The translations under genes were made by a program, and so were the position numbers. A stretch of DNA of 64,000 nucleotides from a virus. The stretch is taken from IMG/VR virus record IMGVR_UViG_3300023179_006134, positions 22,037 through 86,036 of that record; one strand, given 5' to 3'. Below, one piece after another: positions 48,505 through 53,958 of this stretch (within the stretch, counting starts at the first letter, position 1; the number at the start of each line of letters is the position of its first letter). The notes beneath the pieces were generated by a model. That model was not told the DNA's origin and did not search any database. It was given only the letters and a program-made list of their open reading frames with translations.

Positions 48505-48870
48505 TCAAAAAGCAGTTCTCACAGCATCTAGCAATTCATTTACTGATACTATACTGTAACCAGAAACAGCAGTGATTGCCTGATTTGTAGCAGGCACACA
48601 CCACACAACAACTTTCATATTTCCAACAGTTGCCCATTGAGTATTGCTATCTTCTCTAGACATATCCTTCGCAGCAAGCTCAAAGAATTTTGCTCGTGCT
48701 CTTGAACGACAAAGAATTGGAGATGACACATTATCATAAGCCAGTGCCATTGATGGAGGAATTGTAGTATAAGGGTATGAACCAGACAAAACTTTAGGTG
48801 GTTCAGATGCAAAAGCAGGTGCAACAGACATAGTGACTGCGGCAGCTGCTGTAAGAATATATTTAATCAT
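48505..48870 (-). CDS. Small secreted protein with signal peptide
   Basis: A 121-residue protein. Residues 1-22 (MIKYILTAAAAVTMSVAPAFA) are a Sec signal with an AFA cleavage site. The mature part has CRSRARAKFFELAAKDM and VVWCVPATNQ; two Cys could form a disulfide in the periplasm. It has its own sigma70 promoter at 48918-48946 and a terminator. Function unknown; periplasmic place next to psbA and hli is notable. Confidence 0.72.
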   Translation of the reverse strand: MIKYILTAAAAVTMSVAPAFASEPPKVLSGSYPYTTIPPSMALAYDNVSSPILCRSRARAKFFELAAKDMSREDSNTQWATVGNMKVVVWCVPATNQAITAVSGYSIVSVNELLDAVRTAF

Positions 48871-48917: not shown

Positions 48918-48946
48918 ATCATAGCAAATTTGAGAGGTTTTGTCAA
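48918..48946 (-). promoter_or_regulatory. Sigma70 promoter overlapping the psbA stop
   Basis: TTGACA (48941-48946) and TATGAT (48918-48923) with a 17-base spacer on the minus strand. The -35 overlaps the psbA stop codon. The predicted start sits beside the psbA terminator, so this promoter restarts transcription for the secreted-protein gene. Confidence 0.72.
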
Positions 48947-50037
48947 CCAATAGCAGGTGCAGTAGCAGGTGCAGTCAAGGCAACTGGTGTTGCTGCTGCT
49001 GTTGCAAGGTCGAGGGGGAAGTTGTGAGCATTGCGCTCGTGCATTACTTCAAGGCCAAGTCCAGCACGATTTAAAATGTCAGCCCAAGTGGGAATTACTC
49101 GGTTTTGACTATCAACGATGGACTGGTTAAAGTTAAAACCATTCAGATTGAACGCCATAGTAGATACACCAAGAGCAGTGAACCAAATACCCACGACGGG
49201 CCAGGCAGCAAGGAAGAAGTGAAGCGAACGTGAGTTATTAAAAGACGCATATTGGAAAATAAGGCGACCAAAATAACCATGAGCAGCAACAATATTATAG
49301 GTCTCTTCTTCTTGTCCGAACTTATATCCGTAGTTCTGACTTTCGGTTTCTGTGGTCTCACGAACCAGTGATGAGGTTACAAGTGAACCGTGCATCGCAG
49401 AGAACAATGAACCACCGAAGACACCTGCGACGCCCGCCATATGGAACGGATGCATCAGGATGTTATGTTCTGCCTGGAATACAAGCATGTAGTTGAATGT
49501 CCCAGAGATACCCAAAGGCATCGCATCACTAAAAGAACCTTGACCGAAAGGATAAACCAAGAATACAGCAGAGGCAGCAGCAACTGGTGCTGAATACGCA
49601 ACGCAGATCCAAGGACGCATACCTAATCGATAGCTAAGTTCCCATTCTCGTCCCATGTAAGCATAGATGCCAATGAGGAAGTGGAACACGACGAGTTGGA
49701 ACGGACCCCCATTGTAGAGCCATTCATCAAGGGAAGCAGCTTCCCAAATTGGATAGAAATGTAGTCCGATTGCGTTTGAGGAGGGGACAACGGCTCCTGA
49801 GATGATATTGTTTCCATAGAGTAAAGATCCAGCGACAGGTTCACGAATGCCATCAATGTCCACAGGGGGAGCACCGATGAATGCGATGATGAAGCAGGTT
49901 GTAGCAGCAAGTAGGGTTGGAATCATCAGAACTCCAAACCAACCAACATATAAACGGTTGTCAGTTGAGGTTACCCATTGGCAGAATTGTTGCCAGGGAT
50001 TTGTTGTTTGTCTTTGTAAGGCAATTGTAGCAGTCAT
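48943..50037 (-). CDS. psbA: Photosystem II D1 protein PsbA
   Basis: A 364-residue D1 protein with five membrane helices and all landmarks: [18 protein letters not shown] (Glu at the position 130 equivalent, the high-light type), the Q(B)/Tyr and His ligands in [19 protein letters not shown], and [13 protein letters not shown] with the C-terminal processing site after LDLA. It replaces photodamaged host D1 during infection to keep energy flowing. GC content and codon use are higher than in neighbours, as for host-derived psbA. Promoter, structured leader and terminator are all visible. Confidence 0.98.
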
Positions 50038-50060: not shown

Positions 50061-50158
50061 AGTTCGGGGGAACGAACTGTTGGCAGTATTCCTACACCAC
50101 CCTCCAGTGTAGGTAAAAAGACGTATTTGAATTCCCATAGGTCTTGGTTAGCGGGAAT
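50061..50158 (-). ncRNA. Structured psbA leader (PhotoRC-like)
   Basis: Three perfect hairpins lie in the psbA 5' leader: 50061-50078 (AGTTCG/CGAACT), 50091-50113 (CCTACAC/GTGTAGG) and 50131-50158 (ATTCCC/GGGAAT). Conserved PhotoRC-I/II RNA motifs are known upstream of psbA in cyanobacteria and cyanophages; position and hairpin arrangement fit, but I could not score the match. The gap 50038-50283 holds nothing else except the promoters listed. Confidence 0.6.
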
Positions 50159-50200
50159 GTGAGGAATCGTAAAGTTTTATCTTCATTTCCTAACTTATTT

Positions 50201-50229
50201 AGTATAATAGAATCTTAATAAAAGGTCAA
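50201..50229 (-). promoter_or_regulatory. Sigma70 promoter for psbA
   Basis: TTGACC (50224-50229) and TATACT (50201-50206) with a 17-base spacer on the minus strand, giving a leader of about 155 bases with three hairpins. Confidence 0.78.
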
Positions 50230-51927: not shown

Positions 51928-52137
51928 TTACCATAACCCAGGGATAATTTGTCCAGTTGTCAAATAAGTACCAACGGCAATTACAAATCCTAGCATTGCC
52001 AATCTCCCATTTAGTTTCTCAGCCCTTTGAGCATAAGTTTCTTGTTTGTGTTCTGCCATGTCTTTCTCCGTAATGTACATTTTAGGTTCGACAGCAAACA
52101 TATTTTGTCTGTTGCCGTCTTCGGTTGTGATTGTCAT
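51928..52137 (-). CDS. hli: High-light-inducible protein (HLIP)
   Basis: A 69-residue protein from the ATG at 52135-52137. The C-terminal helix AEKLNGRLAMLGFVIAVGTY is the chlorophyll-binding ExxNGRxAMxGF motif, and TGQIIPGLW closes it. Hli proteins bind pigments and protect photosystem II, working with phage D1. Confidence 0.95.
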   Translation of the reverse strand: MTITTEDGNRQNMFAVEPKMYITEKDMAEHKQETYAQRAEKLNGRLAMLGFVIAVGTYLTTGQIIPGLW

Positions 52138-52156: not shown

Positions 52157-52174
52157 GGGAGGATTTCTCCTCCC
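52157..52174 (-). terminator. Terminator hairpin after the porin gene
   Basis: GGGAGGA and TCCTCCC pair perfectly around a TTTC loop, 8 bases past the porin stop, followed on the minus strand by CTTTCTTTTAT. A moderate terminator between the porin and hli. Confidence 0.7.
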
Positions 52175-52181
52175 AAGTTTA

Positions 52182-53063
52182 TCAGAACTTAAATCCAAGA
52201 CCAACAGTTCCAGTTACGTTGTAACCTTGACCACTGCCATAATTATAAGTGGCACGACCAACTCTGGTAGAACCAAAGGTTTCGGCACCAGTGTTAGAGA
52301 AAGGAATCTTCGCATCAGCAAACAAAACAACATTGTTTGCTACTGATACTTCGGCACCAACTACACCGACACCAGCACCCTGATTGCCACCCACCTGACC
52401 ACCAGCACCAAGATAGAGATTAGCAGCAGATACTTTAGATCCATCAGCAAGAGTGCGACGTGAAACAGGAATATCAAGAGTAGCAAGACCACCACCAAAT
52501 ACACCACCACTTACATAGTTAGGAGTGGAGGTTAGTGTTACATAAGGACGAGCAGAAACAGCATACTGATTACCAAGTTCAAATGCTTTTACACGACCTT
52601 GAAGAGTAATACCCGATTCATAAACACGAGCAGCATTAGCAGTAATTCCAGGATAGTTAGCAGCATTACCAGCAAAAGCAATACCACCATAGTTACCAAC
52701 TCCTAACTGACGGCGTTGTGTTGCAGTTACAGCAGCAACTTCAAGTTTAGTTACACGATTGCTTACATCACCAATCTGAGCACGAAGAGCAGCAGCAAGT
52801 TTGGCATCTGCTTGTGTATAGAATTGAGTGATGTTATCCAGACAATGATTTGTCAGAGCAATAACCTCACTGCGAGTTGAATCAGCAGCAGGCTTAAGAG
52901 TGCCGTTAGGATAACCAGCAAGACATCCATATCGTGAATTAAGATTTTGAATTGCCTGATATGCCCAGTCTGTGGGTTGTACATCAGAGAAAGATGCTGG
53001 AGTAGCAAATACTGGTGCGGCAGTTAATACGACGGCACCGGCAAGAAATGAACGAATAACCAT
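52182..53063 (-). CDS. SLH-domain outer-membrane porin-like protein
   Basis: A 293-residue protein. A signal peptide (residues 1-20, ending VFA) is followed by an SLH domain (FSDVQPTDWAYQAIQNL, GCLAGYPNGTLKPA, TRSEVIALTNHCLD) that anchors to pyruvylated glycan, a coiled-coil-like helix, and a beta-barrel part ending VTGTVGLGFKF, with the terminal Phe signature of outer-membrane proteins. This is the layout of cyanobacterial SomA/SomB porins but shorter than the usual ~500 residues. Probably host-derived. Promoter at 53113-53146. Confidence 0.82.
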   Translation of the reverse strand: MVIRSFLAGAVVLTAAPVFATPASFSDVQPTDWAYQAIQNLNSRYGCLAGYPNGTLKPAADSTRSEVIALTNHCLDNITQFYTQADAKLAAALRAQIGDVSNRVTKLEVAAVTATQRRQLGVGNYGGIAFAGNAANYPGITANAARVYESGITLQGRVKAFELGNQYAVSARPYVTLTSTPNYVSGGVFGGGLATLDIPVSRRTLADGSKVSAANLYLGAGGQVGGNQGAGVGVVGAEVSVANNVVLFADAKIPFSNTGAETFGSTRVGRATYNYGSGQGYNVTGTVGLGFKF

Positions 53064-53112: not shown

Positions 53113-53146
53113 TATTTATTTTAGCATTGAGTGAATTTCCTGTCAA
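53113..53146 (-). promoter_or_regulatory. Overlapping sigma70 and late promoter for the porin gene
   Basis: TTGACA (53141-53146) and TAAAAT (53118-53123) with a 17-base spacer, and AATAAATA (53113-53120) inside the -10 region on the same strand. Both early and late expression are possible. Confidence 0.68.
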
Positions 53147-53958
53147 CTCTCTGGTGGGGGTTGTGCGGCAGAGTTTTCGGTTATCCGACCCAGATATGGA
53201 TCATAATTCATATAATCCTTGATGTCAATACCTGCTCCATTCTGTTCCCAGAATTGAGATAGAGCATTGTAATTTGCTCTATGAAAGGCATCAATATGTT
53301 CTGGGTGAATGGAAGAACCCAATTCAATTCGGTAGAGAAGAAGAGGAATGGAATAAGTATTTCCAGAATTATAAATCAAGTCATCAGCCACGGGACGAGG
53401 TTTAACTCCATTATCAAGTTTATATTTTTCACCTCTTGTATGAAACTTCAATAGTTTTTCGGCATGATGACGATTAATTAAATAACATGCTGTGGAGAAA
53501 TCATTTACAAATCTCTTATGAAGTTTAACGTGAATATCCCCAGTACAAATAATTGCGATTTGAACCACATCCCAATCATAAGGTAGATTCGCATAAAAAT
53601 CATTCCAGGTAAAGTTCCAGAATCTTACCAAATCTAAATTACAATCATCTTCCATAATCACCGCATAAGGACTCTCTGAAGTTTCCATCCAATATTTAAT
53701 TGCCTTGAGGTGAGAAGTAGTACATCCAATCTCACCAGAAGTCATCATATCGGGGTATTTGCCCTTAATAATGTCACTTAAATCATCTTCACGACCATCA
53801 TATGCAGAAATACGAGTATAATTTTCAATTTCCCAATACTTAAATTGGTCTTCCATATACTGCCGTCTTTCTGGTTGCCCATCAAGATTTAAGTAATATA
53901 TTGGACCAATTCCTTTTAGTTTATATGTAGATTTATTATTATCCAATAAACTACTCAT
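53143..53958 (-). CDS. GT25-family glycosyltransferase
   Basis: A 271-residue protein. YYLNLDGQPERRQYMEDQF, SGEIGCTTSHLKAIKYWME and VIMEDDCNLD are the GT25 (LPS biosynthesis) motifs, with EDD as the metal/nucleotide site. It probably adds a hexose to lipopolysaccharide or a virion glycan. It overlaps the next gene by ATGA and forms the 3' end of the right-hand glycan unit. Confidence 0.85.
   Translation of the reverse strand: MSSLLDNNKSTYKLKGIGPIYYLNLDGQPERRQYMEDQFKYWEIENYTRISAYDGREDDLSDIIKGKYPDMMTSGEIGCTTSHLKAIKYWMETSESPYAVIMEDDCNLDLVRFWNFTWNDFYANLPYDWDVVQIAIICTGDIHVKLHKRFVNDFSTACYLINRHHAEKLLKFHTRGEKYKLDNGVKPRPVADDLIYNSGNTYSIPLLLYRIELGSSIHPEHIDAFHRANYNALSQFWEQNGAGIDIKDYMNYDPYLGRITENSAAQPPPES

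Follow-up and report, generated by a model that had tools for sequence, protein, structure and literature searches.

The locus examined here raises a simple question: does a phage gene that begins like a cyanobacterial outer-membrane porin encode a porin, and if not, what would its product do in an infected cell? The gene lies in a window of 64,000 nucleotides, which covers positions 22037-86036 of a virus record 86,036 bases long (IMG/VR IMGVR_UViG_3300023179_006134), and consists of a single open frame of 293 aa on the minus strand (window positions 53063..52182). The original prediction had read it as a shortened form of the host SomA-type porin, with a signal, an SLH domain, a helix and a beta-barrel ending in Phe. 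Each of these elements was recovered in our analysis; the type of barrel was not the one expected. Based on the frame and its relatives, the whole gene (52182..53063, minus strand) encodes a chimera of an SLH domain and stalk with a predicted eight-stranded barrel.

The protein starts with MVIR, followed by a hydrophobic run and the probable cleavage site VFA|TP, and residues 1-20 (53004..53063, minus strand) look like a signal peptide. The SLH domain, residues 24-77 (52833..52994, minus strand), is marked by one Pfam match (PF00395, residues 24-67, E 1.7e-7) and matches that of host porins. It is followed by a helical stalk comprising residues 84-120 of the AlphaFold2 model (52704..52814, minus strand), which carries at residues 103-108 the sequence RVTKLE, i.e. 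an RhxxhE-type motif that we take to be a trimer motif and that is found in 89/90 phage and 93/100 host sequences. The predicted outer-membrane barrel, suggested by both the model and the profiles, covers residues 121-293 (52185..52703, minus strand) and ends in ...TVGLGFKF. This is not a chance frame, since full-length relatives with 81-93% identity occur across many independent viral contigs and the signs of export have been kept: of the 90 distinct complete family proteins, 89 have an AxA site, 88 carry a beta-signal-like C-terminus and 89 end in Phe (a single Asn after it being permitted), all three motifs being used as generally defined.

The two halves of the protein point to different origins, since the N-terminal half matches host porins and the barrel does not. 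In a profile-versus-profile comparison (hhalign), residues 24-121 matched cyanobacterial SLH porins with an E value of 4.8e-39, so the host type of this half held up, while the barrel profile reached only 0.2% probability (E 0.28) against the same porins. Likewise, Pfam found SLH in 42/42 phage members and OprB (PF04966) in 0/42, whereas all host porin controls (29/29) contained both domains. The NCBIfam iron-uptake-porin model NF033921 (por_somb) matched just residues 24-89 of the phage protein, where its 63.1 bits fall short of the cut-off of 100, compared with 304.8 bits over the full length of the host porin control. Judged from these profiles, the gene is a chimera in which a host porin tether is joined to a barrel of a different family. 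A shortened SomA porin, as originally predicted, is ruled out by the failed barrel match and the missing OprB domain, and the predicted strand number does not fit it either. S-layer proteins form lattices and usually carry three SLH repeats; such an identity is ruled out here, where only one SLH stretch is present and an outer-membrane barrel comes after it.

The AlphaFold2 model, based on 42 phage sequences, places eight long strands C-terminal to the helix (residues 125-135, 147-163, 167-177, 188-204, 210-225, 228-242, 245-257 and 284-292), with two short additional strands in the last loop. Confidence in this model is moderate (mean pLDDT 71, pTM 0.58) and poor for residues 1-60; the same method gave 16 strands for a host porin. 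The top PDB match in Foldseek was the OmpA barrel (E 2.8e-5), and VIA-align returned OmpW (8qxp; Z 15.5, rmsd 3.0, 143 aligned residues), OmpA (1bxw; Z 14.9, rmsd 2.5, 140 aligned; and 1qjp; Z 14.2, rmsd 1.8, 116 aligned), the OprF N-domain (Z 13.9) and NspA (Z 13.2). No OprB-type porin was among the VIA-align matches listed, while larger barrels do occur lower in the Foldseek list. Against viral models, Foldseek ranked the S-PM2 protein first and a 156-aa outer-membrane barrel of S-CBWM1 second. The barrel is therefore predicted to adopt an eight-stranded fold of the OmpA/OmpW/OmpX type.

Relatives of such a barrel are found in cyanobacteria themselves, outside the porins. Its profile matched 31/386 genomes across the cyanobacterial phylum and 0/300 sampled genomes of the Cyanobiaceae. 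As a positive control, the profile matched 5/6 viral records, only one of which (G000) had contributed a row to the barrel alignment, the miss being S-SRM01 with its host-type porin. In the 15 phylum-wide loci inspected (14 distinct genes, since L256 equals L263), the barrel lies in a short frame that starts like a signal peptide, and the SLH-stalk profile matched none of these 15. The seven stand-alone barrels that were aligned comprise 170-184 residues. Pfam OMP_b-brl (PF13505) recognized 2/3 stand-alone barrels above its cut-off and the third slightly below it; the same model gave no direct match in the 42 phage members. Compared by hhalign, the phage barrel profile and the seven stand-alone barrels nevertheless matched over the whole barrel (99.1%, E 1.6e-18). 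By profile, the phage barrel is homologous to the small stand-alone OMP_b-brl barrels of cyanobacteria. A search of the ORFs of S-CBWM1, covering the initial 50 kb of its genome, gave a further stand-alone relative, gp38 (E 2.6e-5), in which the N-terminal module is absent. Annotated as hypothetical, gp38 (L251:25796-26266) lies near a rare lipoprotein A-like gene.

Could the complete chimera have been taken from a cell? The full chimera profile matched 324/373 genomes across the phylum (best 135 bits) and 226/300 Cyanobiaceae genomes (best 125 bits). A true cellular chimera should far exceed these scores, given that in viral records the barrel by itself already reaches 201-284 bits. All phylum matches listed end within positions 1-208 of the 298 of the model, and nearly all lie in frames of around 480-720 residues, the few short ones mostly at contig ends; the top Cyanobiaceae match (L169) is a host-type porin truncated by a contig end. 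Thus, no cellular chimera was among the best matches listed for the 300 Cyanobiaceae and 373 phylum-wide genomes, which are overlapping samples. A contig scan with the phage alignment A1, using narrow patterns, produced 26 pattern matches, none of which was a relative. Two loci filed under Microbacteriaceae and Bifidobacterium breve metagenome-assembled genomes (L089 and L117) carry cyanobacterial-type SLH porins and look mis-binned.

In phages, by comparison, the family is widespread. A tblastn search against phage records gave six records from three phages, i.e. S-CREM1, S-PM2 (three records) and S-SRM01 (two records). Viral contigs were scanned in three overlapping ways, with the protein as query (32 loci), with the family alignment (best 80 of 398 candidate loci) and with the barrel alone (78 loci), and 250 loci, host loci included, were pooled for the module profiles. 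Both modules were found on one ORF in 141 cases, corresponding to 91 distinct proteins, of which 90 were counted as complete (252-296 aa, median 292), although one of these 90 lacks its C-terminus at a contig end. The four barrel-only ORFs are all truncated by a contig end. Another 139 ORFs matched the N-terminal module only: 134 from host loci, none of them with the barrel (0/134), and five from viral loci, i.e. four contig-end fragments and the long porin of S-SRM01. The two-module architecture is fixed within the phage family, which occurs widely in cyanophages of both freshwater and marine origin, S-PM2 and S-CREM1 among them. With regard to the original remark that phages rarely carry porins, the chimera family is frequent among cyanophage contigs, and a true host-type porin was seen in one cyanophage, S-SRM01. 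PHROGs gave no useful family for the protein, and in a DNA search with 15 kb around the gene, psbA was the sole match among the 30 of 92 phage rows listed.

A phylogeny with Synechococcus porins had been suggested; ours was built on the N-terminal module from 42 phage sequences (out of 82 distinct rows), 40 host sequences (out of 87) and the S-SRM01 porin, on 101 columns, few relative to the number of rows. The phage short forms occupy one side of a single branch (support 100/100, in 200/200 bootstrap trees), which suggests a single origin: to the extent that this tree resolves it, the chimera appears to have arisen once. The long porin of S-SRM01 falls inside the host clade, where it pairs with a host sequence (93/92). 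On this placement, S-SRM01 acquired its host porin separately from the chimera family.

Two neighbours of the gene recur. Upstream lies a glycosyltransferase of family 25 (LPS-type; 53143..53958, minus strand) and downstream a high-light-inducible protein gene (hli; 51928..52116, minus strand), together with a C39-peptidase-like gene for which PHROGs gave an 'endolysin' match. Counting fragments and near-copies (e.g. L026-L028 and L033), an LPS-type glycosyltransferase was found within 2.5 kb in 14/20 close and 17/90 more distant loci, and hli in 12/20 and 44/90, respectively. Elsewhere in the window, a 121-aa ORF with a signal-peptide-like start (48505-48870, minus strand) is flanked by psbA and an HNH-type gene. 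Around 1.8 kb directly upstream of the S-PM2 homologue (L003:6136-7931) are without annotated genes, and the S-SRM01 porin has a gap of 0.9 kb upstream.

When would the protein be made? Upstream of the start codon, a sigma-70-type early promoter, TTGACA-17-TAAAAT (53118..53146, minus strand), agrees with the consensus at 11/12 positions, and its -10 element is overlapped by AATAAATA (53113..53120, minus strand), an instance of the NATAAATA motif described as the late box of S-PM2 (PMC2984593). A terminator-like hairpin with a T-run follows directly 3' of the stop codon (52157..52174, minus strand). The early-type promoter plus late box of the original prediction is thus present in this genome; across the family, however, the sigma-70 core TTGAC-N-TA...T was found in only 37/88 distinct upstream regions and is missing from 51/88. 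Compared with the upstream regions of 705 other plus-strand ORFs of the same viral loci, with start codons assigned mechanically, both the core (55/705) and the early/late composite (24/88 versus 9/705) indicate that this promoter type is enriched upstream of the chimera family. In the 130 bases preceding the S-PM2 homologue, which is reported to be early, no sigma-70-like promoter was found (best 7/12; L003/L074). Just one other early/late composite was found in the window; it reads TTGACC-17-TATACT with AAATA behind it, at 50229 (minus strand), and lies just upstream of a PhotoRC-II RNA (Rfam RF01717, 64 bits; 50078-50172, minus strand), itself upstream of psbA (48943-50037).

With the observed anatomy, the homology of both halves, the promoter-like sequence and the spread of the family as a basis, we infer the location, the trimer, the absence of a pore and the function of the protein as follows. 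We favour, with a probability of roughly 0.55, an early-made, wall-anchored outer-membrane chimera, probably poreless, that remodels the surface of the infected cell and its interface with the wall. The protein would be exported and its barrel inserted into the host outer membrane. Eight-stranded barrels of the OmpA/OmpX class are usually not general pores, and since this barrel is predicted to belong to them, the protein would be an anchor without a general channel, the barrel probably being too narrow for one. The stalk, probably trimeric, would tie the barrel to the cell wall at the place where host porins are usually anchored. The early promoter would allow production from the start of infection and the late box could sustain it, so that the phage would occupy and remodel the interface between outer membrane and cell wall. 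Altered exposure of surface proteins may then leave fewer rival phages able to adsorb, and/or the envelope may be held together while host porin synthesis stops; these are the leading forms of such a remodelling.

The first form, superinfection exclusion, in which infected cells would stop adsorbing the same or related phages because the receptor of these is masked or displaced by the protein, is a tentative but plausible reading. It would fit the early promoter type and the LPS-type glycosyltransferase next to the gene. SLH porins are not known to serve these phages as receptors. The predicted outer loops are also less conserved than the strands, both in close (0.67 versus 0.87) and in distant members (0.58 versus 0.71); this loop variation is weak evidence of surface selection, since the periplasmic turns of distant members (0.47, only 10 columns) are as variable as the outer loops. 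A role of this kind has already been proposed in print for the S-PM2 homologue, for which protection against infection or grazing was put forward in 2010 (PMC2984593).

The second form, a replacement tether between outer membrane and peptidoglycan that would keep the infected cell intact once host porins are no longer made, is possible, though held with some doubt. The architecture, i.e. a tether without a general pore, speaks for it, as do the precedent of OmpM and a late box that would sustain expression, but a plain tether would have no need of variable outer loops. In Synechocystis, SLH porins have been tied to outer-membrane stability, loss of the SLH porin Slr1908 being reported to cause hypervesiculation (PMC8707739).

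A more speculative and rather unlikely reading is that of a decoy: the wall anchor and trimer stalk of the host would have been kept and the channel swapped for a poreless, plug-like barrel, so that the main porins of the infected cell are displaced. Expressed early and strongly, the chimera would compete with them for anchoring sites or co-assemble with them via the common stalk. If true, this would be a dominant-negative decoy for the class of outer-membrane protein that is most abundant in the host, and any receptors borne by porins would be displaced as well.

It is very unlikely that the protein is a functional porin, i.e. a shortened SomA-type channel altering the uptake of nutrients such as iron. 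Its SLH domain and stalk are of the host type, the S-CREM1 homologue is named 'iron uptake porin', and there is the weak por_somb match, but that match is restricted to residues 24-89 and remains under the cut-off, OprB is absent in all 42 members, the barrel is unrelated to those of host porins, and 8 rather than 16 strands are predicted. Some eight-stranded barrels (OmpW/OprG) pass small hydrophobic molecules, and the phage barrel may be a narrow specific channel. The change in nutrient uptake that had been suggested originally is unlikely, since the barrel is predicted to be eight-stranded, of the OmpA/OmpX type, and stems from another family. Least probable of all is a virion component, e.g. 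an adhesin or tail-associated protein, for which the late box and the known packaging of unexpected proteins by phages might be cited, against a Sec-type signal peptide, a beta-signal-like C-terminus and an early promoter that fit export in the host, and against the main text of the S-CREM1 paper, which is without the word 'porin' and reports 14 proteins from virion mass spectrometry, of which 4 are structural, 9 have no known function and 1 is unmatched (PMC9964418).

Neither the chimera nor the identity of its barrel was found described in the open-licence PubMed Central papers searched; both are apparently new, while the idea of protection in S-PM2 is that of 2010. Two public labels are corrected. 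The 'putative S-layer protein' of the model cyanophage S-PM2 (S-PM2p168, CAF34233, 279 aa) and the 'iron uptake porin' of S-CREM1 (SCREM1_199, UYA57656, 292 aa) have the same architecture as the protein studied here, with both modules recognized by profile and 43-44% identity over the matched part, and neither name fits the barrel. Our data therefore bear on the question, posed since 2010, of how the SLH protein that S-PM2 makes early and in abundance affects the surface of the infected cell, and on whether a lytic phage protects the cell it infects from rivals or holds the envelope together.

Within the searches made, the combination of a host porin anchor with a small outer-membrane barrel was seen solely in phage genomes. 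With the cyanobacterial SLH/OprB porins (SomA/SomB; NF033921, PF00395 plus PF04966) the chimera shares the SLH domain, the stalk and the RhxxhE-type motif, but SomA and SomB carry an OprB barrel of 16 predicted strands, in contrast to the eight predicted strands of another family in the phage protein. The stand-alone OMP_b-brl proteins of cyanobacteria (e.g. L252-L261) and S-CBWM1 gp38 show the reverse, i.e. a homologous barrel without SLH domain or stalk. The 'porin' of S-SRM01 (QPX48248, 486 aa; L004:7887-9347) is likewise borne by a cyanophage and has the same type of SLH domain, but is a full-length host-type protein within the host clade and does not match the phage barrel profile. Other phage-encoded outer-membrane barrels are known from temperate phages of enterobacteria, such as Lom of lambda, which is of the OmpX/Ail type, and the Lc porin of phage PA-2; unlike the chimera, these are without an SLH tether. 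A parallel in architecture is the tethered porin OmpM of Veillonella (8bys, 8bym), reported to be a trimer of SLH-stalk type and, in its full-length form, to bind peptidoglycan sacculi (PMC10628300). As in the chimera, an SLH domain and a coiled stalk are joined to an outer-membrane barrel; the barrel of OmpM, however, is a 16-stranded channel, whereas that of the phage protein is predicted to have only eight strands.
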